Positions 13,421 through 64,000 of a DNA stretch of 64,000 nt are shown here, piece by piece. Origin of the DNA: Morinoia aosen (lineage: Eukaryota > Arthropoda > Malacostraca > Amphipoda > Talitridae). A model generated the notes under the pieces. It was not told where the DNA came from, ran no database searches, and saw only the letters and a list, made by a program, of their open reading frames with translations. How positions within the stretch are numbered: position 1 is the first letter of the stretch; the number at the start of each line of letters is the position of its first letter. The DNA is taken from positions 310,001 to 374,000 of the forward strand of contig CM059580.1 of the NCBI GenBank assembly GCA_030386875.1. Direction: 5' to 3'. The translations under genes and the position numbers were made by a program.

Positions 13421-13421
13421 C

Positions 13422-21700: not shown

Positions 21701-22506
21701 ATGTTCAGATGTGGGGGGAAATGTTCAGATGTGGAGGGTAATGTTCCGATGTGGAGGGCAATGTTCAGATGTGGAGGGAAATGTTCAGATGTGGAGGGAA
21801 ATGTTCAGATGTGGAGGGTAATGTTCAGATGTGGAGGGCAATGTTCAGATGTGGAGGGAAATGTTCAGATGTGGAGGGAAATGTTCAGATGTGGAGGGAA
21901 ATGTTCAGATGTGGAGGGAAATGTTCAGATGTGGAGGGAAATGTTCAGATGTGGAGGGTAATGTTCAGATGTGGAGGGCAATGTTCAGATGTGGAGGGAA
22001 ATGTTCAGATGTGGAGGGCAATGTTCAGATGTGGAGGGAAATGTTCAGGTGTGGCGGGAAATGTTCAGATGTGGAGGGAAATGTTCAGGTGTGGAGGGAA
22101 ATGTTCAGGTGTGGCGGTAAATGTTCAGATGTGGGGGGAAATGTTCAGGTGTGGAGGGAAATGTTCAGGTGTGGAGGGAAATGTTCAGGTGTGGAGGGAA
22201 ATGTTCAGGTGTGGAGGGAAATGTTCAGGTGTGGCGGGAAATGTTCAGATGTGGAGGGAAATGTTCAGATGTGGAGGGAAATGTTCAGGTGTGGAGGGAA
22301 ATGTTCAGGTGTGGCGGTAAATGTTCAGATGTGGGGGGAAATGTTCAGGTGTGGCGGGAAATGTTCAGATGTGGAGGGAAATGTTCAGATGTGGCGGGAA
22401 ATGTTCAGATGTGGGGGGAAATGTTCAGATGTGGAGGGAAATGTTCAGATGTGGAGGGAAATGTTCAGATGTGGCGGGAAATGTTCAGATGTGGAGGGAA
22501 ATGTTC
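21701..22506. repeat. 20-bp array ATGTTCAGATGTGGAGGGAA (left arm)
   Basis: About 40 copies of a 20-base unit with no indels across the array. Variants are GGCGGG or GGGGGG for GGAGGG, and CAGGTG for CAGATG; the CAGGTG units cluster at 22045-22360. Open frames of 62-245 codons are stop-free repeat artefacts. The same array, reverse-complemented, occupies 63405-64000. Confidence 0.97.
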
Positions 22507-22800
22507 TAGAACATTGTTTTTTGAAACAAGGTTTCTTTGAACCTATGATTTATATCGTTAATATTTAGAAAATAATAATAATGAAAACATTTTATCTTTG
22601 TCTCATGATACCGTTAATATCATTAATATCAAGATGCAATTAATAACAGAATGATAAGATGATAATGTTAGTTAATGTTTGTCTCCTGATATCTTTGTTA
22701 TCGCAAACAATTATATTAATTGTGATATTGGTTAAATTATTCCCGGGATACCATAAGTACCACAAAAATATTGAAGATATTAGTTAATATTCATCTCGTT
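22507..22800. other. Unique spacer, mirrored at 63074-63404
   Basis: AT-rich spacer between the two 20-bp arrays. The same sequence in reverse complement, with scattered substitutions and small indels, separates the corresponding arrays on the right. No gene is seen. Confidence 0.75.
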
Positions 22801-25800
22801 AGGCCCATTTGTCTCGTCAATAGGCCTGTAAGTCTCCACACTAGGCCTATAGTCTCCACACTAGGCCTATAGGCTCCACACTAGGCCTATAGTCTCCACA
22901 CTAGGCCTGTAAGTCTCCACACTAGGCCTATAGGCTCCACACTAGGCCTATAGTCTCCACACTAGGCCTATAGTCTCCACACTAGGCCTATAGGCTCCAC
23001 ACTAGGCCTATAGTCTCCACACTAGGCCTGTAAGTCTCCACACTAGGCCTATAGGCTCCACACTAGGCCTATAGTCTCCACACTAGGCCTATAGTCTCCA
23101 CACTAGGCCTATAGTCTCCACACTTGGCCTATAGTCTCCACACTAGGCCTATAGTCTCCACACTTGGCCTATAGTCTCCACACTAGGCCTATAGTCTCCA
23201 CACTAGGCCTATAGTCTCCACACTTGGCCTATAGTCTCCACACTAGGCCTATAGTCTCCACACTAGGCCTATAGTCTCCACACTAGGCCTATAGTCTCCA
23301 CACTAGGCCTATAGTCTCCACACTAGGCCTATAGTCTCCACACTTGGCCTATAGTCTCCACACTTGGCCTATAGTCTCCACACTAGGCCTATAGTCTCCA
23401 CACTAGGCCTATAGGCTCCACACTAGGCCTATAGTCTCCACACTAGGCCTATAGTCTCCACACTAGGCCTATAGTCTCCACACTAGGCCTATAGTCTCCA
23501 CACTAGGCCTATAGTCTCCACACTAGGCCTATAGTCTCCACACTAGGCCTATAGTCTCCACACTAGGCCTATAGTCTCCACACTAGGCCTATAGTCTCCA
23601 CACTAGGCCTATAGTCTCCACACTAGGCCTATAGTCTCCACACTTGGCCTATAGTCTCCACACTAGGCCTATAGTCTCCACACTAGGCCTATAGTCTCCA
23701 CACTAGGCCTATAGTCTCCACACTAGGCCTATAGTCTCCACACTAGGCCTATAGTCTCCACACTAGGCCTATAGTCTCCACACTAGGCCTATAGTCTCCA
23801 CACTAGGCCTATAGTCTCCACACTAGGCCTATAGTCTCCACACTAGGCCTATAGTCTCCACACTTGGCCTATAGTCTCCACACTTGGCCTATAGTCTCCA
23901 CACTAGGCCTATAGTCTCCACACTTGGCCTATAGTCTCCACACTTGGCCTATAGTCTCCACACTTGGCCTATAGTCTCCACACTAGGCCTATAGTCTCCA
24001 CACTTGGCCTATAGTCTCCACACTTGGCCTATAGTCTCCACACTAGGCCTATAGTCTCCACACTTGGCCTATAGTCTCCACACTAGGCCTATAGTCTCCA
24101 CACTAGGCCTATAGTCTCCACACTTGGCCTATAGTCTCCACACTTGGCCTATAGTCTCCACACTTGGCCTATAGTCTCCACACTTGGCCTATAGTCTCCA
24201 CACTTGGCCTATAGTCTCCACACTAGGCCTGTAAGTCTCCACACTAGGCCTATAGTCTCCACACTTGGCCTATAGTCTCCACACTTGGCCTATAGTCTCC
24301 ACACTTGGCCTATAGTCTCCACACTAGGCCTGTAAGTCTCCACACTAGGCCTATAGTCTCCACACTTGGCCTATAGTCTCCACACTTGGCCTATAGTCTC
24401 CACACTTGGCCTATAGTCTCCACACTAGGCCTATAGTCTCCACACTTGGCCTATAGTCTCCACACTAGGCCTATAGTCTCCACACTTGGCCTATAGTCTC
24501 CACACTTGGCCTATAGTCTCCACACTAGGCCTATAGTCTCCACACTAGGCCTATAGTCTCCACACTTGGCCTATAGTCTCCACACTTGGCCTATAGTCTC
24601 CACACTAGGCCTATAGTCTCCACACTAGGCCTGTAAGTCTCCACACTAGGCCTATAGTCTCCACACTTGGCCTATAGTCTCCACACTTGGCCTATAGTCT
24701 CCACACTAGGCCTATAGTCTCCACACTAGGCCTATAGTCTCCACACTAGGCCTATAGTCTCCACACTTGGCCTATAGTCTCCACACTTGGCCTATAGTCT
24801 CAACACTAGGCCTATAGTCTCCACACTAGGCCTATAGTCTCCACACTTGGCCTATAGTCTCCACACTAGGCCTATAGTCTCCACACTTGGCCTATAGTCT
24901 CCACACTTGGCCTATAGTCTCCACACTAGGCCTGTAAGTCTCCACACTTGGCCTATAGTCTCCACACTGGGCCTATAGTCTCCACACTAGGCCTGTAAGT
25001 CTCCACACTAGGCCTATAGTCTCCACACTTGGCCTATAGTCTCCACACTTGGCCTATAGTCTCCACACTTGGCCTATAGTCTCCACACTAGGCCTGTAAG
25101 TCTCCACACTAGGCCTATAGTCTCCACACTTGGCCTATAGTCTCCACACTTGGCCTATAGTCTCCACACTTGGCCTATAGTCTCCACACTAGGCCTATAG
25201 TCTCCACACTTGGCCTATAGTCTCCACACTAGGCCTATAGTCTCCACACTTGGCCTATAGTCTCCACACTTGGCCTATAGTCTCCACACTAGGCCTATAG
25301 TCTCCACACTAGGCCTATAGTCTCCACACTTGGCCTATAGTCTCCACACTTGGCCTATAGTCTCCACACTAGGCCTATAGTCTCCACACTAGGCCTGTAA
25401 GTCTCCACACTAGGCCTATAGTCTCCACACTTGGCCTATAGTCTCCACACTTGGCCTATAGTCTCCACACTAGGCCTATAGTCTCCACACTAGGCCTATA
25501 GTCTCCACACTAGGCCTATAGTCTCCACACTTGGCCTATAGTCTCCACACTTGGCCTATAGTCTCCACACTAGGCCTATAGTCTCCACACTAGGCCTATA
25601 GTCTCCACACTTGGCCTATAGTCTCCACACTAGGCCTATAGTCTCCACACTAGGCCTATAGTCTCCACACTAGGCCTATAGTCTCCACACTAGGCCTATA
25701 GTCTCCACACTTGGCCTATAGTCTCCACACTTGGCCTATAGTCTCCACACTAGGCCTATAGTCTCCACACTTGGCCTATAGTCTCCACACTTGGCCTATA

Positions 25801-28800
25801 GTCTCCACACTAGGCCTATAGTCTCCACACTAGGCCTATAGTCTCCACACTAGGCCTATAGTCTCCACACTAGGCCTATAGTCTCCACACTTGGCCTATA
25901 GTCTCCACACTTGGCCTATAGTCTCCACACTAGGCCTATAGTCTCAACACTAGGCCTATAGTCTCAACACTAGGCCTATAGTCTCCACACTAGGCCTATA
26001 GTCTCCACACTAGGCCTATAGTCTCCACACTAGGCCTATAGTCTCCACACTAGGCCTATAGTCTCCACACTTGGCCTATGGTCTCCACACTAGGCCTATA
26101 GTCTCCACACTAGGCCTATAGTCTCCACACTAGGCCTATAGTCTCCACACTAGGCCTATAGTCTCCACACTAGGCCTATAGTCTCCACACTTGGCCTATA
26201 GTCTCCACACTAGGCCTATAGTCTCCACACTAGGCCTATAGTCTCCACACTAGGCCTATAGTCTCCACACTTGGCCTATAGTCTCCACACTAGGCCTATA
26301 GTCTCCACACTAGGCTTATAGTCTCCACACTAGGCCTATAGTCTCCACACTAGGCCTATAGTCTCCACACTAGGCCTATAGTCTCCACACTTGGCCTATA
26401 GTCTCCACACTAGGCCTATAGTCTCCACACTAGGCCTATAGTCTCCACACTAGGCCTATAGTCTCCACACTAGGCCTATAGTCTCCACACTTGGCCTATA
26501 GTCTCCACACTAGGCCTATAGTCTCCACACTAGGCCTATAGTCTCCACACTAGGCCTATAGTCTCCACACTAGGCCTATAGTCTCCACACTAGGCCTATA
26601 GTCTCCACACTAGGCCTATAGTCTCCACACTAGGCCTATAGTCTCCACACTAGGCCTATAGTCTCCACACTAGGCCTATAGTCTCCACACTAGGCCTATA
26701 GTCTCCACACTAGGCCTATAGTCTCCACACTTGGCCTATAGTCTCCACACTTGGCCTATAGTCTCCACACTAGGCCTATAGTCTCCACACTAGGCCTATA
26801 GTCTCCACACTAGGCCTATAGTCTCCACACTTGGCCTATAGTCTCCACACTTGGCCTATAGTCTCCACACTAGGCCTATAGTCTCCACACTTGGCCTATA
26901 GTCTCCACACTTGGCCTATAGTCTCCACACTAGGCCTATAGTCTCCACACTAGGCCTATAGTCTCCACACTAGGCCTATAGTCTCCACACTAGGCCTATA
27001 GTCTCCACACTTGGCCTATAGTCTCCACACTTGGCCTATAGTCTCCACACTAGGCCTATAGTCTCAACACTAGGCCTATAGTCTCAACACTAGGCCTATA
27101 GTCTCCACACTAGGCCTATAGTCTCCACACTAGGCCTATAGTCTCCACACTAGGCCTATAGTCTCCACACTTGGCCTATAGTCTCCACACTAGGCCTATA
27201 GTCTCCACACTAGGCCTATAGTCTCCACACTAGGCCTATAGTCTCCACACTAGGCCTATAGTCTCCACACTAGGCCTATAGTCTCCACACTTGGCCTATA
27301 GTCTCCACACTAGGCCTATAGTCTCCACACTAGGCCTATAGTCTCCACACTAGGCCTATAGTCTCCACACTTGGCCTATAGTCTCCACACTAGGCCTATA
27401 GTCTCCACACTAGGCCTATAGTCTCCACACTAGGCCTATAGTCTCCACACTAGGCCTATAGTCTCCACACTAGGCCTATAGTCTCCACACTTGGCCTATA
27501 GTCTCCACACTAGGCCTATAGTCTCCACACTAGGCCTATAGTCTCCACACTAGGCCTATAGTCTCCACACTAGGCCTATAGTCTCCACACTAGGCCTATA
27601 GTCTCCACACTTGGCCTATAGTCTCCACACTAGGCCTATAGTCTCCACACTAGGCCTATAGTCTCCACACTAGGCCTATAGTCTCCACACTAGGCCTATA
27701 GTCTCCACACTAGGCCTATAGTCTCCACACTAGGCCTATAGTCTCCACACTAGGCCTATAGTCTCCACACTAGGCCTATAGTCTCCACACTAGGCCTATA
27801 GTCTCCACACTAGGCCTATAGTCTCCACACTAGGCCTATAGTCTCCACACTTGGCCTATAGTCTCCACACTTGGCCTATAGTCTCCACACTAGGCCTATA
27901 GTCTCCACACTAGGCCTATAGTCTCCACACTAGGCCTATAGTCTCCACACTAGGCCTATAGTCTCCACACTAGGCCTATATTCTCCACACTTGGCCTGTA
28001 AGTCTCCACACTAGGCCTATAGTCTCCACACTAGGCCTATAGTCTCCACATTAGGCCTATAGTCTCCACATTAGGCCTATAGTCTCCACACTTGGCCTGT
28101 AAGTCTCCACACTAGGCCTTTAGTCTCCACACTAGGCGTAGAGTCTCCACACTAGGCCTATAGTCTCCACACTAGGCCTATAGTCTCCACACTAGGCCTA
28201 TAGTCTCCACACTAGGCCTATAGTCTCCACACTAGGCCTATAGTCTCCACACTAGGCCTATAGTCTCCACACTAGGCCTATAGTCTCCACACTAGGCCTA
28301 TAGTCTCCACACTAGGCCTGTAGTCTCCACACTAGGCCTATAGTCTCCACACTTGGCCTATAGTCTCCACACTTGGCCTATAGTCTCCACACTAGGCCTA
28401 TAATCTCCACACTAGGCCTATAGTCTCCACACTAGGCCTATAGTCTCCACACTAGGCCTATAGTCTCCACACTAGGCCTATAGTCTCCACACTAGGCCTA
28501 TAGTCTCCACACTTGGCCTATAGTCTCCACACTAGGCCTATAGTCTCCACACTTGGCCTATAGTCTCCACACTTGGCCTATAGTCTCCACACTAGGCCTA
28601 TAGTCTCCACACTTGGCCTATAGTCTCCACACTTGGCCTATAGTCTCCACACTAGGCCTATAGTCTCCACACTTGGCCTATAGTCTCCAAACTTGGCCTA
28701 TAGTCTCCACACTAGGCCTATAGTCTCCACATTAGGCCTATAGTCTCCACACTAGGCCTATAGTCTCCACACTAGGCCTATAGTCTCCACACTTGGCCTA

Positions 28801-30884
28801 TAGTCTCCACACTTGGCCTATAGTCTCCACACTTGGCCTATAGTCTCCACACTAGGCCTATATTCTCCACACTTGGCCTGTAAGTCTCCACACTAGGCCT
28901 ATAGTCTCCACACTAAGCCTATAGTCTCCACATTAGGCCTATAGTCTCCACATTAGGCCTATAGTCTCCACACTTGGCCTGTAAGTCTCCACACTAGGCC
29001 TATAGTCTCCACACTAGGCGTAGAGTCTCCACACTAGGCCTATAGTCTCCACACTAGGCCTATAGTCTCCACACTAGGCCTATAGTCTCCACACTAGGCC
29101 TATAGTCTCCACACTAGGCCTATAGTCTCCACACTAGGCCTATAGTCTCCACACTAGGCCTATAGTCTCCACACTAGGCCTATAGTCTCCACACTAGGCC
29201 TATAGTCTCCACACTTGGCCTATAGTCTCCACACTAGGCCTATAGTCTCCACACTTGGCCTATAGTCTCCACACTTGGCCTATAGTCTCCACACTAGGCC
29301 TATAGTCTCCACACTTGGCCTATAGTCTCCACACTTGGCCTATAGTCTCCACACTAGGCCTATAGTCTCCACACTTGGCCTATAGTCTCCACACTTGGCC
29401 TATAGTCTCCACACTAGGCCTATAGTCTCCACATTAGGCCTATAGTCTCCACACTAGGCCTATAGTCTCTACACTAGGCCTATAGTCTCCACACTTGGCC
29501 TATAGTCTCCACACTTGGCCTATAGTCTCCACACTTGGCCTATAGTCTCCACACTAGGCCTATATTCTCCACACTTGGCCTGTAAGTCTCCACACTAGGC
29601 CTATAGTCTCCACACTAGGCCTATAGTCTCCACATTAGGCCTATAGTCTCCACATTAGGCCTATAGTCTCCACACTAGGCCTATAGTCTCCACACTAGGC
29701 CTATAGTCTCCACACTTGGCCTATAGTCTCCACACTTGGCCTGTAAGTCTCCACACTAGGCCTCTAGTCTCCACACTTGGCCTATAGTCTCCGCACTTGG
29801 CCTATAGTCTCCACACTTGGCCTTTAGTCTCCACACTTGGCCAATAGTTTCCACACTAGGCCTATAGTCTCTACACTAGGCCTATAGTCTCCACACTAGG
29901 CCTATAGTCTCCACACTAGGCCTATAGTCTCCACACTTGGCCTATAGTCTCCATATTAAGCCTATAGTTTCCACATTAGGCCTATAGTCCACACTAGGCC
30001 TATAGTCTCCACACTTGGCCTATAGTCTCCACACTAGGCCTATAGTCTCCACACTAGGCCTACAGTCTCCACACTAGGTCTATAGTCTCCACACTAGGAC
30101 TATAGTCTCCTCACTATGCCTATAGTCTCCACACTAGGCCTATAGTCTCCACACTTGGCTTATAGTCTCCGCACTTGGCCTATAGTCTCCACACTTGGCC
30201 TATAGTCTCCACACTTGGCCTATAGTCTCCACACTAGGCCTATAGTCTCCACATTAGGCCTGTAGTCTCCACACTAGGCCTATAGTCTCCACATTAGGCA
30301 TATAGTCTCCACACTTGGCCTGTAAGTCTCCACACTAGGCCTATAGTCTCCACACTAGGCCTATAGTTTCCACTTTAGGCCTGTAAGTCTCCACACTAGG
30401 CCTATAGTCTCCACACTTGGCCTGTAAGTCTTCACACTAGGCCTATAGTCTCCACACTAGGCCTATAGTCTCCACACTAGGCCTATAGTCTCCACACTAG
30501 GCCTATAGTCTCCACACAAGGCCTATAGTCTCCATACTAGGCCTATAGTTTCCACACTAGGCCTATAGTCTCCACACTAGGCCTGTAAGTCTCCACACTA
30601 GGCCTATAGTCTCCATACTAGGCCTATAGTCTACACTAGGCCTATAGTCTCCACACTAGGCCTGTAAGTCTCCACACTAGGCCTATAGTCTCCACACTAG
30701 GCCTATAGTCTCCACACTAGGCCTATAGTCTCCACACTAGGCCTATAGTCTACACACTAGGCCTATAGTCTACACACTAGGCCTATAGTCTCCACACCAG
30801 GCCTATAGTCTCCACACTAGGCCTATAGTCTACACTAGGCCTATTGTCTCCACACCAGGCCTATAGTCTCCACACTAGGCCTAT
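22801..30884. repeat. 8.1-kb array of the 20-bp unit AGTCTCCACACTAGGCCTAT
   Basis: About 400 copies. The two main monomer types, ACTAGGCC and ACTTGGCC, are interspersed; a 21-base type carrying TGTAAGTCT occurs at intervals. From about 25440 to 27980 the 20-base phase is unbroken. Rare markers recur at fixed offsets (paired GTCTCAACAC at 25941/25961 and 27061/27081; TATTCTCC at 27979, 28861 and 29563), revealing higher-order blocks of about 1120, 882 and 702 bp. Each consensus unit has the 8-base palindrome TAGGCCTA. The matching array at 62632-63073 is only about 440 bp. Confidence 0.98.
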
Positions 30885-31700
30885 CAGAGGTCTCTCTAAA
30901 AAAATTCTCGTCATTATTAAATTCTTTGGCCCCTTTTTATTTTTATTTAAAAAATCGTTCACTGGGACTGAGAGAAATGCGCTGGAATAAAAAAAATGGT
31001 TTTTGAAGTAACGCTCTAGTTTCTATTAATTTTTTCTGTACATTTCTTCAATTATTTAAAGAAGAAAAGTACTTTTTAAATGTACTATCCAATGAAGTAG
31101 AAGTACTTTTTTTTATTAATTATTGAGATAGAAGTAGTTTTTTAAGTAAGTAATGAAGTAAAAGTAATCATGTAGTTAATTATTGAAGTAGATGTACTTT
31201 TTTATTAATTAATTGATGAAGTAAGAGTACTTCTTCAATTAATTAATGAAATATAAGTACTTATTTAGTTCATTAATGAAGTAAAAGTTGTTTTTCAATT
31301 ATTCATTCAAGTAAAAGTACTTCTTTTACGAAATAATAAAGTAGATGTATGATACTTTATTAAATAATAAAAGAAATGCATAAAAAGAATTTTTTCACTG
31401 AAAGAAGTATATGGAACTTTTTCAAAAAGTACAATTGAAAAAAATATGTTTGTGTAAAAACAATGCTATGCTAAGTGTGGGGCCCCTGTGTATGTAGACT
31501 GTAACGCCCGGTCATGTGTAAAAATAAACTTTTATTCCACTTCTCGGTGTTTTATTTACTCTTTTCATCACACCTGCACAAGTTTCTTCTATTTATTATG
31601 TGTGTGTTGGGACCGTGTGTGTTTTTGTGTACTCTGAAGTATGTATACAGCGTGTGTGTGTGTGTTTGTGTATGTGTTGTGCCAGACTTTTGTTCTGTGT
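30885..31700. other. Spacer with degenerate AAGTACTTTTT repeats, mirrored at 61825-62630
   Basis: Between about 31060 and 31350, diverged units of 35-40 bases carry GAAGTAAAAGTACTT with TTAATTAAT linkers. The rest is unique. The whole spacer has a reverse-complement counterpart on the right. A roughly 62-codon hydrophobic frame starting at 31514 has a counterpart there, but the frames diverge after an indel, so I do not call it a gene. Confidence 0.7.
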
Positions 31701-31722
31701 GAAAATCTACGATAATTGCCGC

Positions 31723-32190
31723 TGTGTTTTGTTCGTCAAAATCTACGGGAATTACCGCCGTGTTTTGTTTGCTAAAATCTACGGGAATTACCGCCGTGTT
31801 TTGTTTGTTAAAATCTACGGAAATTACCGCCGTGTTTTGTTTGTAAAATCTACGGGAATTACCGCCGTGTTTTGTTTGTTAAAATCTATGGGAATTACCG
31901 CTGTGTTTTGTTTGTAAAATCTACGGGAATTACCGCCGTGTTTTGTTTGTTAAAATCTACGGGAATTACCGCTGTGTTTCGTTTGTAAAATCTACGGGAA
32001 TTACCGCCGTGTTTTGTTTGTTAAAATCTACGGGAATTACCGCCGTGTTTTGTTTGTAAAATCTACGGGAATTACCGCCGTGTTTTGTTTGTTAAAATCT
32101 ACGGGAATTGCCGCCGTGTTTTGTTTGTTAAAATCTACGGGAATTACCGCCGTGTTTTGTTTGTTAAAATCTACGGGAAAAATTACAAAT
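31723..32190. repeat. 35/36-bp array (left arm)
   Basis: About 13 copies of a unit containing AAATCTACGGGAATTACCGC and CGTGTTTTGTTTGT, in 35- and 36-base forms that differ by one T. The AAATCTACGGG core is shared with the neighbouring 82-bp repeat. The mirrored array at 60175-61815 is about three times longer. Confidence 0.96.
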
Positions 32191-32344
32191 TTTGGGCAAA
32201 ATGTACGGAGAAGGTAGACCTGTTTATTTGTTTGTTGCAAATAGACATCACCATTTTTCTGTTCTTGTAAATGTGCTTGGAGGATACCAACATTTTCGAT
32301 TTTCATTCCGACAGTCGTAAAAATATATAGATTTCGACATATTT

Positions 32345-33080
32345 TCATTGATGGAAAAGATCTACAGGGAAGCCACACATATTTTCAAAATTTGTAAAAA
32401 AAACTACGGGGAAACTGCACGTGTTGTTATTAGTTGTATAAAATCTACGGGGAAGCCACACATATTTTCAAAATTTGTAAAAAAAACTACGGGGAAACTG
32501 CACGTGTTGTTATTAGTTGTAAAAATCTACGGTGAAGCCACACATATTTTCAAAATTTGTAAAAAAAACTATGGGGAAACTGCACGTGTTGTTATTAGTT
32601 GTAAAAATCTACGGGGAAGCCACACATATTTTCAAAATTTGTAAAAAAAAACTACGGGGAAACTGCACGTGTTGTTATTAGTTGTAAAAATCTACGGGGA
32701 AGCCACACATATTTTCAAAATTTGTAAAAAAAAACTACGGGGAAACTGCACGTGTTGTTATTAGTTGTAAAAATCTACGGGGAAGCCACACATATTTTCA
32801 AAATTTGTAAAAAAAACTACGGGGAAACTGCACGTGTTGTTATTAGTTGTAAAAATCTACGGGGAAGCCACACATATTTTCAAAATTTGTAAAAAAAATT
32901 ACGGGGAAACTGCACGTGTTGTTATTAGTTGTAAAAATCTACGGGGAAGCCACACATATTTTCAAAATTTGTAAAAAAAAACTACGGGGAAACTGCACGT
33001 GTTGTTATTAGTTGTAAAAATCTACGGGGAAGCCACACATATTTTCAAAATTTGTAAAAAAAAAAAACTACGGGGAAGCT
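32345..33080. repeat. 82-bp array (left arm)
   Basis: About nine copies of an 82-84 bp unit with two related halves: TCTACGGGGAAGCCACACAT with TTTTCAAAATTTGT, then ACTACGGGGAAACTGCACGT with GTTGTTATTAGTTGT. Length varies through the A-run before ACTACGG. The mirrored array at 58375-59997 is about twice as long. Confidence 0.96.
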
Positions 33081-33462
33081 ACACATGTTTTCATTAACCT
33101 TACAAACTAAATGCTCACATTGCGCACCTTTTATGTTATTATTATTCTTATATACGTACATTTTCAGTGGTGAAACATTAATAATATTCGGATTATTACA
33201 CATATACTTCCGGTTTCGAAACATCGTACACAATTAAAATTTTGGGATTATGAAATATACAATTTCGCTGGGAAATCGTAGTATATTATAACCATTTTCG
33301 GAATATCATGTAAAAAATTTTAGCGCGTTAAATAATTATCGAATTTTCCGATTACGTCAACTTCAAGTTAAACTTTTTATTGGAATGCTCAGCATAATGT
33401 GTATTAATTCGAGTAGATTATATTTATATGATTACATTTCATCGTTCGTTAATTATTTTGCG
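33081..33462. other. Unique spacer, mirrored at 58000-58375
   Basis: Non-repetitive AT-rich sequence aligned by eye to the reverse complement of 58000-58375 with about twenty differences and a few one- to six-base indels. No reading frame is conserved. It is the best place to measure divergence between the two arms. Confidence 0.75.
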
Positions 33463-37115: not shown

Positions 37116-37238
37116 ACTGGAAAAGTTTGGGGTAAATTGGAGTATTTTGGGGTAAAATGAAATATGTTAGAGGGAACTGGACTATTTTAGGGTGAACTGG
37201 AGTATTTTAGGGTAAAATGGAGTAACTGTAGGGTAAAT

Positions 37239-38026: not shown

Positions 38027-38285
38027 CACAACACAACAATAACAACACAGCACAACAATAACAACACAGCACAACAATAACAACACAGCACAACAATAAC
38101 AACAACAGCACAACAATAACAACAACAGCACAACAATAACAACACAACACAACAATAACAACACAGCACAACAATAACAACACAGCACAACAATAACAAC
38201 ACAGCACAACAATAACAACACAGCACAACAATAACAACAACAGCACAACAATAACAACAACAGCACAACAATAACAACAACAATA
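38027..38285. repeat. 19-bp array AACAATAACAACACAGCAC
   Basis: About 13 copies right after the gap, with 18- and 20-base variants (ACAACAGCAC for ACACAGCAC). The array is cut by the gap, so its true length is unknown. Confidence 0.95.
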
Positions 38286-53133: not shown

Positions 53134-54071
53134 TTTTGAAACAGCTGAAAATCAAATAAAAAAGTGGAATGAAAATCAATGTAAAGGTTGAAAAATGTAC
53201 CGAGTATTGTAAGGGTTGGAAATTGGTGAAAGTGAATTTGAAATGGTTAAAAATGAAATGGAAATGGGTTGGAAATGCAGGGAATAGGTAGAAAATGGAA
53301 AAGTAGTTAGGAAATAGAAGAAATTAGTCGTAAAAAAGATACGGTATGAAAATGAAAGCAATGGTTTCGTAATGGGAGAAATGTGTTGGAAATGAGAGTA
53401 ATGGGTTTAAAAGTAAGAAATGGGCTAGAAGTGCGAGAAACAGATTGTTAACGAAACAAATATATTGAAAATGGGGAAAATAAGCGAAAAGTGAGTTGGT
53501 AAGGGAAGAAATGGGATGACAGTAGCAAAAATGCGTTGTTAGAGGAAGAAATACATTTAAATTGGGAAAAAGTGTATATTAAAAAAATGGGTTGAAATCA
53601 AAGAAATGAACTGTTAATGGAAAAAATATGTTGAAAATGGGGGGAAATGCTAAAAATAGAATGAATGGTTTGAAAATGTGAGGCAAGTGGGTTGAAAATG
53701 AATAAAATGAGTTGAAAATAGATAAAAATCGGTTGAAAATGAGTCGAAAATGGGTTGAAAATTGATATAATGAGTTAGAAAACAGAAATTCGCGTTGAAA
53801 ATGTATAAAAAGGGTTGAAAATTTATATAATGGGTTAAAAGTTGAAAATCGCGTTGAAAATGGGTTGAAAATGGGGGAAATGGGTTGAAAATGGGGGAAA
53901 TGGGTTGAAAAATGGGGAAAATGGGTTGAAATGGGGGAAATGGGCTGAAAATAGGTTGAAAATGCCAGAAATGGGTGGGAAATGGGCGTAGACACGGACG
54001 CGACGCACAACCACGGTTACATACCAGAAAATGGGTGTGGTGGTGAAGACGGTGATGATATACGAGTGGCG
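53134..54071. other. Degenerate GAAAATGGG-rich sequence
   Basis: Purine-rich on the + strand, with irregularly spaced GGGTTGAAAATG and GGGGGAAATG words that become regular between 53850 and 53980. It looks like an old or decaying minisatellite. No gene is recognised; minus-strand frames are Phe/Pro/Ser-rich composition artefacts. Confidence 0.6.
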
Positions 54072-54410
54072 AGGCGACGGTGCCATGAGAGTGGGAGTGG
54101 TGACGTCACAAGGCGACGGTGCCATGAGAGTGGGAGTGGTGACGTCACAAGGCGACGGTGCCATGAGAGTGGGAGTGGTGACGTCACAAGGGACGGAGGT
54201 CGGTATTGGCCGCAGCCACGGCGGAAAAAGAGCCAGAAAGAAAGCAGGAAATTAGCAAAAGTGAAGAGAAGCAGCCCACATGTAGCGGTGAAACAACGGC
54301 CAAACGGTGAAATAACGGTCGAACGGGGATATAACGGCCAGATACACGCTATGACGGGACCGATTGTGAGAGAATTAAAAGTAATCAACTCATTGGTAAG
54401 TGATGTTTGA
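54066..54410 (+). other. GC-rich block with conserved open frame, right copy
   Basis: The + frame reads 13-residue repeats (CHESGSGDVTRRR), then a basic segment (PQPRRKKSQKES, KLAKVKRSS), GEITVERGYNGQ and stops at TGA 54408-54410. The mirrored frame at 37239-37526 stops at the same place. Several of the terminal differences are conservative (Leu/Ile, Lys/Arg, Val/Ile), but others are not. A GTAAGT at 54396-54401 could be a donor, but the mirror copy has GTAAAT. No homologue is recognised. It could equally be a CpG- and CRE-rich regulatory block that is open by chance. Confidence 0.4.
54072..54189. repeat. 39-bp repeat, three copies, each with a perfect CRE
   Basis: Starts at 54072, 54111 and 54150 are 39 bases apart. 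Each unit has AGGCGACGGTGCCATGAGAG, then GTGGGAGTGG and the palindrome TGACGTCA (54101-54108, 54140-54147, 54179-54186). TGACGTCA is the full cAMP-response element recognised by CREB/ATF bZIP factors. The left arm carries at least 1.6 units before the gap. Confidence 0.95.
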
Positions 54411-54484
54411 ATTTACCCTATAGTTACTCCAGTTCACCCTAAAGGACTTCAGTTACCCTGAAATACTCCAATTTCACTCCAGTT

Positions 54485-56155
54485 TACTCCCAGATGCTCC
54501 AGTTTACCCCCAAATGCTTCAGTTTACCCCCAGTTGCTACAGTTTACCCACAGTTACTCCAAATTACCCACAGTTACTCCAGTTTACCCCCAGTTGCTCC
54601 AGTTTACCCCAAGATGCTCCAGTTTACCCCCAGTTGCTCCAGTTTACCCTCAGTTGCTCCAGTTTACCCCCAGATACTCCAGTTTACCCCCAGACGCTCC
54701 AGTTTACCCCCCGAATGCCCCAGTTTACCCCCAGATGCTCCATTTTACCCCCAGTTGCTCCAGTTTACCCCCAGATGCTCCAGTTTACCCCCAGTTACTC
54801 CAGTTTACCCTCAGTTGCTCCAGTTTACCCCCAGGTTCTCCAGTTTACCCAAATGCTTCATTTTACCCCCAGTTGCATCAGTTTACCCCCAGTTGCTCCA
54901 GTTTACCCCCAGTTGCTCCAGTTTACCCCCAGTTGCTCCAGTTTACCCCCAGTTACTCCAAATTACCCAGAGTTACTCCAGTTTACCCCCAGTTGCTCCA
55001 GTTTACCCCCAGTTGCTCCAGTTTACCCCAGATGCTCCAGTTTACCCCCAGTTGCTCCAGTTTACCCCCAGGTTCTCCTGTTTACCCCCAGTTTCTTCAG
55101 TTTACCCCCAGATGCTCCAGTTTACCCCAGATGCTCCAGTTTACCCTCAGTTGCTCCAGTTTACCCACAGATACTCCAGTTTACCCCCAGACGCTCCAGT
55201 TTACCCCCTGAATGCCCCAGTTTACTCCCAGATGCTCCAGTTTACCCCCAGTTTCTCCAGTTTATCCCCAGATGCTCCAGTTTACCCCCAGGTTCTCCAG
55301 TTTACCCCCAAATGCTTCAGTTTACCCCCAGTTGCTCCAGTTTACCCCCAGTTGCTCCAGTTTATCCCCAGTTGCTCCAGTTTACCTCCAGGTTCTCCAG
55401 TTTACCCCCAAATGCTCCAGTTTATCCACAGATGCATCAGTTTACCCCAAGTTGCTCCAGTTTACCCCAGGTTCTCCAGTTTACCCCCAAATGCTCCAGT
55501 TTACCCCCAGTTACTCCAGTTTACCCCCAGTTACTCCAAATTACCACAGTTACTCCAGTTTACCCCAAGCTGCTCCAGTTTACCCCCAGTTACTCCAAAT
55601 TACCCACAGTTACTCCAGTTTACCCCCAGTTGCCCCAGTTTGCCCTAAGATGCTCCAGTTTACCCCCAGTTACTCCAAATTACCCACAGTTACTCCAGTT
55701 TACCCCCAGTTGCTCCAGTTTGCCCCAAGATGCTCCAGTTTACCCCCAGTTACTCCAAATTACCCACAGTTACTCCAGTTTACCCCCAGTTGCTCCAGTT
55801 TGCCCCAAGATGCTCCAGTTTACCCCCAGTTACTCCAAATTACCCATAGTTACTCCAGTTTACCCCAGTTACTCCAGTTTACCCCCAGTTACTCCAAATT
55901 ACCCACAGTTACTCCAGTTTACCCCAGTTACTCCAGTTTACCCCCAGTTACTCCAAATTACCCACAGTTACTCCAGTTTACCCCAGTTACTCCAGTTTAC
56001 CCCCAGTTACTCCAAATTACCCACAGTTACTCCAGTTTACCCCAGTTACTCCAGTTTACCCCCAGTTACTCCAAATTACCCACAGTTACTCCAGTTTACC
56101 CCAGTTGCTCCAGTTTACCCCCAGATGCTCCAGTTTACCCAAGTTACTATAATTA
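54485..56155. repeat. 20-bp array, reverse of CTGGGGGTAAACTGGAGCAT (right arm)
   Basis: About 83 copies of CAGTTTACCCCCAGTTGCTC and variants (AGATGCTC, AGTTACTCCAAATTACCC). The AAATTACCCACAGTTACTC type is amplified between 55510 and 56100 and is rare in the left-arm array. Frames up to 549 codons are artefacts. Confidence 0.96.
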
Positions 56156-57120
56156 ACCTCTGATCACCATTATTTACCATAGGCATTTCAAATTTACATC
56201 AGTTACCCCAGTTTACCCCAACACCACCACCATCACCACACCGGTATCACCACACCACACCAGTACACCACACTAGCCCTTACTTTTTAAGGGTAAAAAA
56301 AAAATATTTTCTTAGTCAAAAATAAAAATCCACGCCTAAAGAAGCTACACCTACACAAATGTATCCCTTGCACTAGACTTAATAAAATATCTATTGATGT
56401 ATCGCTTATGGTATATTTAAATTTTAAATTGTTTAAATGGTTTACATGATGTGTCGCATGTGATAAATGAATTATTTAAATTGTTTAAATGGTTTTCATG
56501 ATGTGTCGCATGTGATAAATGAATTAATTAAATTGTTTAAATGGTTTTCAAGATGTGTCGCATGTGATAAATGAATTATTTAAATTGTTTAAATGGTTTA
56601 CATGATGTGTCGCATGTGATAAATAAATTAATTAAAATGTTTAAATGGTTAACATGATGTGTCGCTTGTGATTAATAAATATTTCAAACTGTTTTAAGTT
56701 GTTTTCAATTTCTAACTGGCTCAATTCCTTCAATTCGATGTTTTCAATTTCTCCCTTCAATTCAACAATATGAATTTTCAACAATAGAAGTCGAATATCC
56801 AATTCAACACGAACCACCATTGGCGAGCGCCGGCGTTTTTTTTCCCCGGATTTTTTTTCATTTTTTAATCACATCGCGTTGATGTTGATACGAAAACTTC
56901 ATGTTGTGCGCCGAATATAACATTTATGAAGGCTTTACTACACTAAAATGTTTTGAAAGTTACTGAAGAAATAAATGCGATTTTCCAGAGCATTCTATAA
57001 CTTAGGAAAGTATCGCATACATTTATTGATAACATATAAAGTACTGCACGTTCGTGTGTGTGTGCGTGTGTCCAAATCCTGTACGTTTTCACCGTCAAAA
57101 TTGATGGCTCTGTCTCCCAG
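56156..57120. other. Spacer mirrored at 34753-35790
   Basis: Contains the reverse complement of the degenerate 60-bp CATCATGTAAACC repeat (about 56400-56690) and unique flanks. No frame is conserved with the left copy; the Lys/Arg-rich frame of the left copy meets a stop here. Confidence 0.65.
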
Positions 57121-58000
57121 AAATGACGTAAGACGCAAATGACGTAAGACGCAAATGACGTAAGACGCAAATGACGTAAGACGCAAATGACGCAAGACGC
57201 AAATGACGTAAGACGCTAATGACGTAAGACGCAAATGACGTAAGACGCAAATGACGTAAGACGCAAATGACGTAAGACGCAAATGACGTAAGACGCAAAT
57301 GACGTAAGACGCAAATGACGTAAGATGCAAATGACGTAAGACGCAAATGACGTAAGACGCAAATGACGTAAGACGCAAATGACGTAAGACGCAAATGACG
57401 TAAGACGCAAATGACGTAAGACACAAATGACGTAAGACGCAAATGACGTAAGACGCAAATGACGTAAGACGCAAATGACGTAAGACGCAAATGACGTAAG
57501 ATGCAAATGACGTAAGACGCAAATGACGTAAGACGCAAATGACGTAAGACACAAATGACGTAAGACGCAAATGACGTAAGACGCAAATGACGTAAGACGC
57601 AAACGACGTAAGACGCAAATGACGTAAGATGCAAATGACGTAAGACGCAAATGAAGTAAGATGCAAATGACGTAAGGCGCAAATGACGTAAGACGCAAAT
57701 GACGTAAGACGCAAATGACGTAGGACGCAAATGACGTTAGACGCAAATGACGTAAGACGCAAGTGAGGTAAGACGCAAAGACGTAAGACGCAAGTGACGT
57801 AAGACGCAAAGACGTAAGACGCAAGTGACGTAAGACGCAAATGACGTGAGACGCAAATGACGTAAGACGCAAATGACGTAAGACGCAAATGACGTTAGAC
57901 GCAAATGACGTAAGACGCAAGTGACGTAAGACGCAAAGACGTAAGACGCAAGTGGCGTAAGACGCAAATGACGTGAGACGCAAATGACGTAAGACGCAAA
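57121..58000. repeat. 16-bp array AAATGACGTAAGACGC (right arm)
   Basis: About 55 copies of the reverse complement of GCGTCTTACGTCATTT. Between 57760 and 57980 several units lose two or three bases (GCAAAGACG, GCAAGTGACG), an irregularity absent from the left arm. Confidence 0.97.
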
Positions 58001-58374
58001 ATAATTAACGAACGATGAAATGTAATCATAGAAATATAATCTACTCGAATTAATACACATTATGGTGAGCATTTAATAAAAAGTTTAACTTGAAGTTGAC
58101 GTAGTTGGAAAATTCGATAATCATTTAATGCGCTGAAATGATTTACATGATATTCCGAAAATGGTTATAATATACTACAATTTCCCAGCGAAAATATATA
58201 TTTCATAATCCCAAAATTTTAATTGTGTACGATGTTTCGAAACCGGAAGTATACGTGTAATAATCCGAATATTATTAATGTTTCACCACTGAAAATGTAC
58301 GTGTATAATAATAATAACATAAAAAGGTGCGCAATGTGAGCATTTAGTTTTTAAGGTTAATGAAAACATGTGTA
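58001..58374. other. Unique spacer mirrored at 33081-33462
   Basis: Non-tandem sequence, counterpart of the left-arm spacer, with about twenty differences by eye. No gene is seen. Confidence 0.7.
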
Positions 58375-59997
58375 GTTTCCCCGTAGTTTTTTTTACAAAT
58401 TTTGAAAATATGTGTGGCTTCCCCGTAGATTTTTACAACTAATAACAACACGTGTAGTTTCCCCGTAGTTTTTTTTACAAATTTTGAAAATATGTGTGGC
58501 TTCCCCGTAGATTTTTACAAAATTTGAAAATATGTGTGGCTTCCCCGTAGATTTTTACAACTAATAACAACACGTGCAGTTTCCCCCTAGTTTTTTTTAC
58601 AAATTTTGAAAATATGTGTGGCTTCCCCGTAGGTTTTTACAACTAATAACAACACGTGCAGTTTCCCCGTATTTTTTTTTTACAAATTTTGAAAATATGT
58701 GTGGCTTCCCCGTAGATTTTTACAACTAATAACAACACGTGTAGTTTCCCCGTAGTTTTTTTTTACAAATTTTGAAAATATGTGTGGCTTCCCCGTAGAT
58801 TTTTACAACTAATAACAACACGTGCAGTTTCCCCGTAGTTTTTTTTTACAAATTTTGAAAATATGTGTGGCTTCCCCGTAGATTTTTACAACTAATAACA
58901 ACACGTGTAGTTTCCCCGTAGTTTTTTTTACAAATTTTGAAAATATGTGTGGCTTCCCCGTAGATTTTTACAACTAATAACAACACGTGTAGTTTCCCCG
59001 TAGTTTTTTTTACAAATTTTGAAAATATGTGTGGCTTCCCCGTAGATTTTTACAAAATTTGAAAATATGTGTGGCTTCCCCGTAGATTTTTACAACTAAT
59101 AACAACACGTGCAGTTTCCCCGTAGTTTTTTTTTACAAATTTTGAAAATATGTGTGGCTTCCCCGTAGATTTTTACAAAATTTGAAAATATGTGTGGCTT
59201 CCCCGTAGATTTTTACAACTAATAACAACACGTGTAGTTTCCCCCTAGTTTTTTTTTACAAATTTTGAAAATATGTGTGGCTTCCCCGTAGATTTTTACA
59301 ACTAATAACAACACGTGCAGTTTCCCCGTAGTTTTTTTTTACAAATTTTGAAAATATGTGTGGCTTCCCCGTAGATTTTTACAACTAATAACAACACGTG
59401 CAGTTTCCCCGTAGTTTTTTTTACAAATTTTGAAAATATGTGTGGCTTCCCCGTAGATTTTTACAAAATTTGAAAATATGTGTGGCTTCCCCGTAGATTT
59501 TTACAACTAATAACAACACGTGTAGTTTCCCCGTAGTTTTTTTTTTACAAATTTTGAAAATATGTGTGGCTTCCCCGTAGATTTTTACAACTAATAACAA
59601 CACGTGCAGTTTCCCCGTAGTTTTTTTTTACAAATTTTGAAAATATGTGTGGCTTCCCCGTATATTTTTACAACTAATAACAACACGTGCAGTTTCCCCC
59701 TAGTTTTTTTTACAAATTTTGAAACTATGTGTGGCTTCCCCGTAGGTTTTTACAACTAATAACAACACGTGCAGTTTCCCCGTAGTTTTTTTTTACAAAT
59801 TTTGAAAATATGTGTGGCTTCCCCGTAGATTTTTACAACTAATAACAACACGTGTAGTTTCCCCGTAGTTTTTTTTTACAAATTTTGAAAATATGTGTGG
59901 TTTCCCCGTAGATTTTTACAACTAATAACAACACGTGCAGTTTCCCCGTAGTTTTTTTTTACAAATTTTGAAAATATGTGTGGCTTCCCCGTAGATC
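58375..59997. repeat. 82-bp array (right arm)
   Basis: About 20 units of the reverse complement of the left-arm 82-bp repeat. Four positions (near 58520, 59053, 59175 and 59468) have a half-unit in which the CTAATAACAACACGTG half is missing, so GCTTCCCCGTAGATTTTTAC pieces follow directly. The left arm shows no such deletion form. Confidence 0.95.
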
Positions 59998-60174
59998 TTT
60001 TCCATCAATGAAAATATGTCGAAATCTATATATTTTTACGACTGTCGGAATGAAAATCGAAAATGTTGGTATCCTCCAAGCACATTTACAAGAACAGAAA
60101 AATGGTGATGTCTATTTGCAACAAACAAATAAACAGGTCTACCTTCTCCGTAAATTTTGCCCAAAATTTGTAAT
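59998..60174. other. Short unique spacer mirrored at 32180-32345
   Basis: About 175 bases, counterpart of 32180-32345 in reverse complement and nearly identical by eye. Frames across it join two repeat arrays and are not genes. Confidence 0.6.
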
Positions 60175-61824
60175 TTTTCCCGTAGATTTTAACAAACAAA
60201 ACACGGCGGTAATTCCCGTAGATTTTACAAACAAACACGGCGGTAATTCCCGTAGATTTTAACAAACAAAACACGGCGGCAATTCCCGTAGATTTTAACA
60301 AACAAAACACGGCGGTAATTCCCGTAGATTTTAACAAACAAAACACGGCGGCAATTCCCGTAGATTTTAACAAACAAAACACGGCGGCAATTCCCGTAGA
60401 TTTTAACAAACCAAACACGGCGGTAATTCCCGTAGATTTTAACAAACAAAACACGGCGGTAATCCCCGTAGATTTTAACAAACAAAACACGGCGGCAATT
60501 CCCGTAGATTTTAACAAACAAAACACGGCGGTAATTCCCGTAGATTTTAACAAACAAAACACGGCGGTAATTCCCATAGATTTTAACAAACAAAACACGG
60601 CGGTAATTCCCGTAGATTTTACAAACAAAACACGGCGGTAATTCCCGTAGATTTTACAAACAAAACACGGCGGTAATTCCCGTAGATTTTAACAAACAAA
60701 ACACGGCGGCAATTCCCGTAGATTTTAACAAACAAAACACGGCGGTAATTCCCGTAGATTTTAACAAACAAAACACGGCGGCAATTCCCGTAGATTTTAA
60801 CAAACAAAACACGGCGGTAATTCCCGTAGATTTTAACAAACAAAACACGGCGGCAATTCCCGTAGATTTTAACAAACAAAACACGGCGGTAATTCCCGTA
60901 GATTTTAACAAACAAAACACGGCGGTAATTCCCGTAGATTTTAACAAACAAAACACGGCGGTAATTCATGTAGATTTTACAAACAAAACACGGCGGTAAT
61001 TCCCGTAGATTTTAACAAACAAAACACGGCGGTAATTCCCGTAGATTTTACAAACAAAACACGGCGGTAATTCCCGTAGATTTTAACAAACAAAACCCGG
61101 CGGTAATTCCCGTAGATTTTACAAACAAACACGGCGGTAATTCCCGTAGATTTTACAAACAAACACGGCGGTAATTCCCGTAGGTTTTACAAACAAAACA
61201 CGGCGGTAATTCCCGTAGATTTTACAAACAAAACACGGCGGTAATTCCCGTAGATTTTACAAACAAAACACGGCGGTAATTCCCGTAGATTTTAACAAAC
61301 AAAACACGGCGGTAATTCCCGTAGATTTTACAAACAAACACGGCGGTAATTCCCGTAGATTTTACAAACAAAACACGGCGGTAATTCCCGTAGATTTTAC
61401 AAACAAAACACGGCGGTAATTCCCGTAGATTTTAACAAACAAAACACGGCGGTAATTCCCGTAGATTTTACAAACAAACACGGCGGTAATTCCCGTAGAT
61501 TTTACAAACAAACACGGCGGTAATTCCCGTAGGTTTTACAAACAAAACACGGCGGTAATTCCCGTAGATTTTACAAACAAAACACGGCGGTAATTCCCGT
61601 AGATTTTACAAACAAAACACGGCGGTAATTCCCGTAGATTTTAACAAACAAAACACGGCGGTAATTCCCGTAGGTTTTACAAACAAAACACGGTGGTAAT
61701 TCCCGTAGATTCTACAAACAAAACACGGCGGTAATTCCCGTAGATTTTAACAAACAAAACACGGCGGTAATTCCCGTAGATTTTTCAAACAAACACGGCG
61801 GTAATTATCGTAGATTTTCACACA
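60175..61824. repeat. 35/36-bp array (right arm)
   Basis: About 46 copies of the reverse complement of the left-arm unit (GGCGGTAATTCCCGTAGATT with TTAACAAACAAAACAC). Units of 34, 35 and 36 bases alternate through TTTTACAAAC against TTTTAACAAAC and AAACAAACAC against AAACAAAACAC. A block near 61090-61260 recurs near 61440-61620, suggesting a duplication of about 350 bp. Confidence 0.95.
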
Positions 61825-62630
61825 GAACAAAAGTCTGGCACAACACATACACAAACAAACATACACACACACACGCTGTATACATACTGAAAAGAACACA
61901 AAAAACACACGGTCCCAACATACACATAATAAATAGAAGAAACTTGTGCAGGTGTGATGAAAAGAGTAAATAAAACACCGAGAATTGGAATAAAAGTTTA
62001 TTTTTACACATGACCGGGCGTTACAGTCTACATACACAAGGACCCCACACTTAGCATAGCATTGTTTTTACACACATTTTTTTTTCAATGGTACTTTTTG
62101 AAAAAGTTCCATTTACTTCTTTCAGTGGAAAAATTCTTTTTATGCATTTCTTTTGTTATTTAAAAAAGTATCATACTTCTACTTTATTAATTCATAAAAG
62201 AAGTACTTTTACTTTAATAAATGATTGAAAAAGTACTTTCACTTCATTAATCAACTAAATAAGTACTTATATTTCATTAATTAATTGAAGAAGTACTCCT
62301 ACTTCATCAATTAATTAATAAAAAAGTACATCTACTTCAATAATTAATTACATAATTACTTCTACTTCATTCCTTAATTAAAGAAATACTTCTATCTCAT
62401 TAATTAATAAAAAAAAGTACTTCTACTTCATTGGATAGTTGATTTAAAAAGTACTTTTCCTCTTTAAATAATGGAAGAAATGAACGGAAAAAATTAATAG
62501 AAACTAGAGCGTTATTTCAAAAACCATTTTTCCATTCCAGCGCATTTCTCTCAGTCCCAGAGAACGATTTTTTGAATAAAAAAAGGGGCCAAAAAATTTA
62601 ATAATGAGGAGAATTTTTTTAGAGAGACCT
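61825..62630. other. Spacer with degenerate AAGTACTT repeats, mirrored at 30885-31700
   Basis: The segment about 62100-62470 carries AAAGTACTTCTACTTCATTA-type units with TTAATTAAT linkers. Flanking sequence is unique and aligns to the left arm in reverse complement with small indels. No gene is seen. Confidence 0.65.
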
Positions 62631-62631
62631 T

Positions 62632-63073
62632 CGATAGGCCTAGTGTGGAGACTATAGGCCTAGTGTGGAGACTATAGGCCTAGTGTGGAGACTATAGGCC
62701 TAGTGTGGAGACTATAGGCCTAGTGTGGAGACTATAGGCCTAGTGTGGAGACTATAGGCCTAGTGTGGAGACTATAGGCCTAGTGTGGAGACTATAGGCC
62801 TAGTGTGGAGACTATAGGCCTAGTGTGGAGACTATAGGCCTAGTGTGGAGACTATAGGCCTAGTGTGGAGACTATAGGCCTAGTGTGGAGACTATAGGCC
62901 TAGTGTGGAGACTATCAGCCTAGTGTGGAGACTATAGGCCTAGTGTGGAGACTATAGGCCTAGTGTGGAGACTATAGGCCTAGTGTGGAGACTATCAGCC
63001 TAGTGTGGAGACTATCAGCCTAGTGTGGAGACTATAGGCCTAGTGTGGAGACTATAGGCCTAGTGTGGAGACT
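62632..63073. repeat. Short 20-bp array, reverse of AGTCTCCACACTAGGCCTAT (right arm)
   Basis: About 22 copies of AGGCCTAGTGTGGAGACTAT. All carry the TAGTGTGG form; the alternative type common on the left (which would read CAAGTGTGG here) is absent. Three units have a private CAGCC variant at 62935, 62995 and 63015. The array is about 18 times shorter than its left-arm counterpart. Confidence 0.97.
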
Positions 63074-63404
63074 TACTGTAGGCCTACTGACGAGACAAAT
63101 GGGCCTAATGAGACAAATAATAACTAATGTCTTCAATATTTTTGTGATACCAACGGTATCCCGGAAATAATTTAACCAATATCACAATAATTATATTTTT
63201 TTGCGATAATAAAGATATTAGGAGACAAACATTAACTAACATTATCATCTTATCATTCTGTCATTAATTTCATCTTGATATTAACGAAATTAACGGTATC
63301 TTGAGACAAAGATAAAATGTTTTCATTATTATTATTTTCGAAATATTAACTATATAAATCATATGTTCAAAGAAACCTTGTTTCAAAAACAATGTTCTAG
63401 AAAA
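63074..63404. other. Unique spacer mirrored at 22507-22800
   Basis: AT-rich sequence, counterpart of the left-arm spacer in reverse complement with scattered differences. No gene is seen. Confidence 0.65.
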
Positions 63405-64000
63405 TTTCCCTCCACATCTGAACATTTCCCGCCACATCTGAACATTTCCCTCCACATCTGAACATTTCCCTCCACATCTGAACATTTCCCTCCACATCTG
63501 AACATTTCCCTCCACATCTGAACATTTCCCTCCACATCTGAACATTTCCCTCCACATCTGAACATTTCCCTCCACATCTGAACATTTCCCTCAACATCTG
63601 AACATTTCCCTCCACATCTGAACATTTCCCTCCACATCTGAACATTTCCCTCCACATCTGAACATTTCCCTCCACATCTGAACATTTCCCGCCACATCTG
63701 AACATTTCCCGCCACATCTGAACATTTCCCGCCACATCTGAACATTTCCCGCCACATCTGAACATTTCCCGCCACATCTGAACATTTCCCGCCACATCTG
63801 AACATTTCCCTCCACATCTGAACATTTCCCTCCACATCTGAACATTTTCCTCCACATCTGAACATTTCCCGCCACATCTGAACATTTCCCGCCACATCTG
63901 AACATTTCCCTCCACATCTGAACATTTCCCGCCACATCTGAACATTTCCCTCCACATCTGAACATTTCCCTCCACATCTGAACATTTCCCTCCATATCTG
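63405..64000. repeat. 20-bp array, reverse of ATGTTCAGATGTGGAGGGAA, runs off window
   Basis: About 30 copies of TCCACATCTGAACATTTCCC without indels. The CAGGTG variant block seen on the left is absent; GCCACATC variants cluster at 63690-63800. The array is not finished at base 64000. Confidence 0.97.

Follow-up and report, generated by a model that had tools for sequence, protein, structure and literature searches.

Does the large inverted repeat at this locus represent a real palindrome, a real duplication, or the same locus assembled twice? The window considered here is the whole stretch of DNA analyzed, 64,000 bp, with positions 1-64000 corresponding to C25:310001-374000. It contains a single run of N, 500 in length, which divides it between two contigs. 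The left one, c3, consists of window 1-37526 and 19 kb upstream, and the right one, c4, of window 38027-64000 and 56 kb downstream. The features are as follows:

1..37526, plus strand: part of the left contig c3 (C25:290787-347526, 56,740 bp from gap to gap)
13491..20114, plus strand: open coding exon of 6,624 bp, from an ATG to an AAG/GTAAGA donor
21826..37526, plus strand: in-window part of the left arm, which stops at the gap within a 39-bp array
22821..30884, plus strand: 20-bp minisatellite of 403 copies (right-arm counterpart at 62634-63073, 22 copies)
37453..37526, plus strand: 39-bp array where c3 breaks off, with 1.9 copies here against 3.2 in the right arm
37527..38026, no strand: 500-N scaffold gap (C25:347527-348026), separating the contained c3 from the longer, probably allelic c4
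38027..38279, plus strand: 19-bp array with which c4 starts
38027..54071, no strand: part of the right contig c4 (C25:348027-430408) that has no counterpart in c3
54072..64000, minus strand: part of c4 that matches window 21826-37526 in reverse complement, with matches that go on past the window

Antiparallel BLAST matches between the arms, with scores that reach 2588 bits, form a collinear chain from 21826/64000 through 37526/54123. The arrays and spacers do recur reverse-complemented and in mirrored order, as the initial annotation had described, but the arrays number ten rather than eight (periods 20, 20, 30, 36, 83, 16, 53, 20, 19 and 39), two of them with just two to three copies. Across the nine inter-array spacers, 2026 aligned bases are identical and 121 differ, with 31 indel events that take up 199 bases; identity over aligned bases is 94.4%, with a range of 82.6-99.4% by spacer. 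Shuffled spacers gave 86.0% identity with a maximum of 87.8%, a weak control because its aligner gaps freely, and the BLAST scores would seem to be the better evidence against chance likeness.

The left arm ends at a fixed-size gap, as first noted: it stops at 37526, and the 500 N start at 37527. The idea that the gap lies on the axis of the repeat was mistaken, since the midpoints of paired positions fall at about 42.9-45.8 kb and the gap only adjoins the left arm. There is no natural arm end in the window, where the left arm is cut by the gap and the right arm by base 64000. The proposed comparison past base 64000 shows that the repeat runs on to C25:410512, and with the outside sequence included, the arms measure about 57 kb on the left and 46 kb on the right. 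Outside the arms, no further inverted matches above 100 bits were found within the window, using a filter that removes self-mirror overlaps. A short self-symmetric element at about 20.7-21.0 kb was removed by this filter.

The inverted arrangement is what a fold-back chimera would produce, in which the same strand is read twice in a palindromic sequencing read or an amplified molecule, but it is the only feature that such an event would explain. The arms of a chimera should be near identical, and here the spacers carry 121 substitutions and 31 indels, and one array has 403 versus 22 copies. The arms also reside on two contigs joined by N, 16 kb apart. This explanation is effectively ruled out by the arm divergence.

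The difference between 403 and 22 copies (about 18-fold) is the largest copy-number gap among the nine arrays compared, and the arrays diverge in composition as well. In three of the nine, only 26-32% of k-mer occurrences are common to both arms, and one of four simple consensus units agrees at 14 of 20 positions between the arms. The order of units in the three arrays that were mapped shows no visible correspondence. These differences in composition and order count against a mis-join of two alleles.

Following the repeat to the ends of the contigs reveals how it is bounded. Minus-strand matches to the interior of c4 cover 56,740 of the 56,740 bases of c3 and extend to both c3 ends, which lie at two 500-N gaps. 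One collinear chain takes up 36,991 bases (65.2%) of c3, the remainder being mostly arrays, and the megablast coverage of c3 by c4 is 99.4%. Points against so simple a containment are that the first bases of c3 align within an array where several registers are equivalent, and that local duplications in c3 (e.g., 301.4-303.5 and 306.5-308.6 kb) fall on one c4 stretch. The original suggestion of overlapping or allelic contigs is supported as an allelic mis-join but not as a mere overlap, because c3 is wholly contained in c4. A short contig that lies from end to end within a longer one is the pattern of a retained haplotig, and the gap at C25:347527-348026, between the two members of a duplicated pair on one scaffold, is that of a false heterotype duplication. 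The limits of the duplication are c3's own ends, which is expected of a retained haplotig and not of a palindrome.

Large palindromes and inverted segmental duplications, such as the palindromes of sex chromosomes, have antiparallel, collinear arms around a spacer, and c3 and c4 share this layout. A true palindrome would here place two arms, each about 50 kb long, on either side of a 16-kb spacer in one molecule, and the gap would mark the point where the assembly broke at the inner border of an arm. However, no single contig contains both arms or spans them, no left-arm border is found in contiguous sequence, and the inner and outer borders of that arm would both have to be contig ends. The arms are also unequal, and their spacers are 5.6% diverged, whereas palindrome arms are typically homogenized by conversion. 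The palindrome that had been offered as the alternative is therefore not supported, and it is very improbable.

Probe searches spanning 1.99 Gb of the assembly provide a count of copies. The exon and spacer probes from c3 each have two full-length or nearly full-length places in the genome, and the intron probe also has two, with 1301 and 1293 of 1301 bases (among the best 40 of 1168 candidates scored). By contrast, a probe from the part found only in c4 (window 43640-44620) has one full-length place genome-wide, plus a 46-bp match, so there is no second copy of that part in the assembly. Two copies are thus seen with all three probes inside the contained region and one with the probe outside it. 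The random control probe, L031, proved to be a high-copy repeat, with at least 40 matches among 1031 candidates, and is uninformative as a control.

With c3 duplicated from gap to gap inside c4, and two places against one for the probes, the mis-join reading is supported. It is highly probable that the mirror repeat is an assembly artifact, in which c3, from one haplotype, has been placed backwards beside c4, from the other. The two contigs would represent the two haplotypes of one gene region, rich in minisatellites, from a heterozygous, malacostracan-like crustacean. The assembler may have kept both because their introns differ by about 5%, their arrays differ greatly in length, and both break in arrays. 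The scaffolder would then have flipped c3 relative to c4 and joined the two through a 500-N spacer of fixed size, presumably on the basis of Hi-C contacts.

The 6.6-kb exon bears on whether the copies are alleles or paralogs. Its second copy is at C25:378891-385514 on the minus strand, with 32 mismatches and no indels, and both copies are open. The exon copies diverge by 0.48% (dS 0.011, dN 0.003) and the next intron by 4.85%, which is compatible with alleles; the spacers diverge by 5.6%. Such unevenness between exon dS and the adjoining intron would be expected of recombining alleles, although gene conversion or constraint could have the same effect. An intron divergence of about 5% would be very high as heterozygosity; a level of 4.39% for SNPs has been reported in lancelet (PMC4284660).

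These data also have to be weighed against true paralogy, that is, a real segmental duplication in which c3 is a fragment of one copy, scaffolded beside the other and possibly truly inverted. Both exon copies are complete and open, the introns have diverged by about 5%, and a short contig contained in a long one is expected here as well; containment alone would equally fit a fragment of a larger paralogous duplication, and an assembler break at a true repeat boundary could also yield homology that ends at gaps. Against this, the c4-only probe is single copy in the assembly, the duplication limits are contig ends on both sides, and the divergence is uneven between exon and intron. Paralogy is accordingly considered improbable. 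The same low likelihood applies to one form of it, in which a crustacean chromosome would truly carry an inverted duplication, 46-57 kb long at the least, with two intact copies of the gene. Conversion or constraint would then hold the exons together (0.5%), while the introns (5%) and arrays (403 versus 22 copies) would have drifted apart. The two copies of the locus are probably alleles rather than paralogs.

The sole Pfam match of the large exon scores 13.5 bits, below the cut-off of 27, a Protein Data Bank search with it gave no matches, and no relative of its last 305 residues was confirmed in viral contigs. Across the whole window, neither Rfam models at the gathering threshold nor a tRNA scan gave any match.

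False heterotype duplications are described as most often gap-separated, while no such gap was found for the true ones reported there (PMC9516828, Genome Biol. 2022;23:205). The present locus resembles them in having diverged copies on one scaffold with a gap between and a gene that is probably falsely doubled, but differs in that the c3 copy is inverted and wholly contained. Short contigs are often mis-oriented by Hi-C scaffolders, according to the SALSA2 paper (PMC6719893), and c3 is likewise short, lies between gaps and was plausibly placed by orientation-blind contacts, although the Hi-C origin of the joins is here presumed. The 500-N spacers match those of one 3D-DNA assembly (PMC10320752).

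Read literally, the locus would present a gene duplication and a giant palindrome close to a scaffold end, both of them false. An inexpensive check that requires no reads is to trace the repeat as far as each end of the contig and to count probes genome-wide; its by-product here is a pair of what are probably alleles, from a locus dense in minisatellites.

The surroundings suggest that more than one join is doubtful. Four more 500-N gaps are found across C25:230001-494000, and a tandem array lies within 10 bp of all ten contig ends bordering the five gaps. This is less striking because arrays make up 57% of the region overall (45-75% of c1-c5 and 8% of c6, in the parts examined). The neighboring contigs c1 and c2 are partly duplicated too, in direct orientation: the three longest blocks are 95.6-96.6% identical and two others 86-87%, and the array-bound end of c1 matches the interior of c2. 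About 78 kb past the window, c6 begins with 381 bp of (AACCT)n, oriented as a left chromosome end. The gap-rich stretch comes before a telomere-like array with which a contig starts, and this casts doubt on more than the c3/c4 join; c1-c5 may hang outside the chromosome end and would belong elsewhere in the map. An internal 220-bp (AACCT)n array in C1 at 29.65 Mb weakens the telomere reading, and the motif was absent from all scaffold ends tested.

Amphioxus, a candidate source in view of the richness of its genome in minisatellites, is rejected on the evidence of the arthropod-type hemocyanins. A molluscan hemocyanin model found no match in the genome, in a run without a positive control. The genome has 17 matches to the arthropod-type hemocyanin PF00372. 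The one hemocyanin compared is closest to the arthropodan hemocyanin 1hc1 and to 6l8s, the spiny lobster and shrimp proteins, with 713-725 bits versus 326 for the next.

The arrays and spacers of 21.7-37.5 kb in the window return reverse-complemented at 54.07-64 kb, as the initial annotation had claimed. In a minus-strand comparison of the window with itself, the matches form a collinear series running from 21826/64000 to 37526/54123 (top single match 2588 bits), with a mirrored order common to ten arrays. The nine aligned inter-array spacers have 2026 identities, 121 mismatches (63 transitions and 58 transversions) and 31 indels. The single N run in the window, 500 N at 37527-38026, indeed abuts the end of the left arm, which breaks off there within a 39-bp array that has more copies in the right arm. 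The gap is not the axis of the repeat, however, as had been supposed: positions that pair with each other are centred on about 42.9-45.8 kb.

The assembly searched comprises 1.99 Gb in 29 contigs; the window corresponds to C25:310001-374000, and the range C25:230001-494000 was examined around it. It holds five gaps of 500 N each (266368, 290287, 347527, 430409 and 451914) that divide it into six contigs, c1-c6, of which c1 and c6 are only partly inside the range. Two of these meet in the window:

C25:290787-347526, c3, the left contig
C25:348027-430408, c4, the right contig

c3 is contained in c4. All 56,740 of its 56,740 bases lie under some minus-strand match to c4, between 410512 and 364072, and megablast coverage is 99.4%. 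One collinear chain spans 36,991 bases of c3 (65.2%), and much of the remainder consists of arrays and local duplications that match c4 in several registers; the first bases of c3, a 14-bp array, similarly have several equivalent match registers on c4. At the five gaps, each of the ten contig ends has a tandem array within 10 bp. In the parts examined, the tandem-repeat share is 45-75% in c1-c5, 8% in c6 and 57% overall. c4 ends in a 21-bp tandem array about 17 kb long (C25:413520-430408).

Other pairs among the six contigs share less than 20% by megablast, with the exception of c1 and c2, which are part-duplicated in direct orientation (C25:252539-266367 and 269353-279414, with some 10-13 kb in common). 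The three longest blocks are 95.6-96.6% identical and two others 86-87%, and the array-bound end of c1 matches the interior of c2. This duplication is probably an unmerged allelic overlap.

Copy number across the whole genome was assessed with four probes. Probe 20300-21600 has two places, both on C25, with 1301 and 1293 of 1301 bases; the remaining 88 of 90 matches, on both strands, are to a short, roughly 270-bp element inside the probe (best 40 of 1168 candidates scored). Two places were also found for probe 16000-18500, inside a large exon, and for probe 34754-35189, a spacer by the gap (91% identical), with both of two candidates scored in each case. Probe 43640-44620, present in c4 only, has one full-length place and one 46-bp match (two of two scored). 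The three c3 probes thus have two places each and the c4-only probe one: at the probes tested, the duplicated part has a single extra copy and the stretch past the end of c3 has none. The short element (20693-20969) matches its own reverse complement, appears MITE-like and has at least 88 matches, on both strands and on 18 scaffolds, among the best 40 of 1168 candidates.

The large exon is present in both contigs:

Window 13491-20114, exon, 6,624 bp, open, 3' end AAG followed by GTAAGA
C25:378891-385514, minus strand, second exon copy, same length, 32 mismatches, no indels, no stop

The exon copies differ by 0.48% (dS 0.011, dN 0.003), the adjoining intron by 4.85% and the 5' flank by 1.5%, so that the exon is far less diverged than its intron, at synonymous sites also. 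Over six aligned segments, divergence in 500-bp steps is 0-12.9%, with its minimum in the exon and in a long open stretch near C25:296 kb. The two exon copies are most likely one gene, and annotation of the locus would yield two genes in opposite orientation. An intron divergence of 5% between alleles would be high, yet not without precedent, since 4.39% SNP between haplotypes is given for the Chinese lancelet (PMC4284660). The exon appears serine-rich by eye; it had no Pfam match above the cut-off, and none was found in the Protein Data Bank. The other open stretch (C25:295400-297300) is glutamine-rich and probably another exon; its inner 500-bp steps are 0.2-0.4% diverged between copies and a nearby step 12.6%.

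Copies and k-mers were compared for nine of the ten arrays, and some differ greatly in copy number between the arms:

20-bp unit, 22821-30884 vs 62634-63073, 403 copies left and 22 right
36-bp unit, 13 copies left and 46 right
83-bp unit, 8.5 copies left and 20 right
16-bp unit, 81 copies left and 55 right

In six of the nine, 74-100% of right-arm k-mer occurrences are present in the left counterpart, but only 26-32% in the other three. Simple consensus units, tested for four arrays, agree at 20/20, 19/20 (the 20-bp minisatellite), 16/16 and 14/20 positions, and the order of unit variants has no visible correspondence between the arms in the three arrays mapped. If allelic, 403 vs 22 copies would be a very large length polymorphism.

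The initial annotation had left a choice between a mis-join of two haplotypes and a true palindrome. The containment and the gap-bounded duplication support the former; a palindrome, for which the left arm would have to be bounded by contig ends on either side, is extremely improbable. Heterotype false duplications originate where haplotypes diverge; most such pairs have a gap between the copies, and no true duplication was found to have one (PMC9516828). A true paralogous pair, with c3 a fragment of one copy, is quite unlikely. Under the haplotype reading, the assembler would have kept the two alleles separate owing to their intron and array differences, and a contact-based scaffolder may then have set the shorter allele next to the longer, on the wrong strand, with 500 N between. 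Where heterozygosity is high, alternative haplotypes can be assembled as if they were distinct loci, according to an account where 3D-DNA scaffolding was done after purging (PMC9673378). Orientation errors are described as common in short contigs (PMC6719893), and one 3D-DNA assembly has 500 Ns between contigs (PMC10320752).

c6 starts with 381 bp of (AACCT)n (C25:452414-452794), 78 kb beyond the window end and in left-chromosome-end orientation. TTAGG is the arthropod telomere unit and (AACCT)n its complement. In the honeybee, CCTAA is described at the chromosome start (PMC6454739). The genome has 14,525 overlapping 13-unit matches to (AACCT)n; those listed include some close to the beginning of C2 (7.5 kb onward) and in the interior of C1 at 29.65 Mb. 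The repeat is absent at both ends of C25 and from the first 1000 bases of C1, C3, C8 and C19, and the first 1000 of C2 are N. The array in C25 is either a buried telomere, and hence a scaffold error, or an interstitial array; if a telomere, the preceding 452 kb, including the window, was probably hung outside the chromosome end. Deep within C1, a 220-bp (TTAGG)n array (C1:29645298-29645517) is either interstitial or a second buried contig end. Just inside the C25 array is a 6.1-kb direct repeat, 99.7% identical (C25:454894-461022 and 466761-472884), perhaps a young subtelomeric element.

Arthropod-type hemocyanin has 17 matches in the genome, on three scaffolds, with two clusters at C23:9.01-9.06 Mb and C13:64.80-64.90 Mb; 14 of the 17 have open frames of 510-586 residues. 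The one match compared is nearest to the arthropodan hemocyanin 1hc1 and to 6l8s, from spiny lobster and shrimp.
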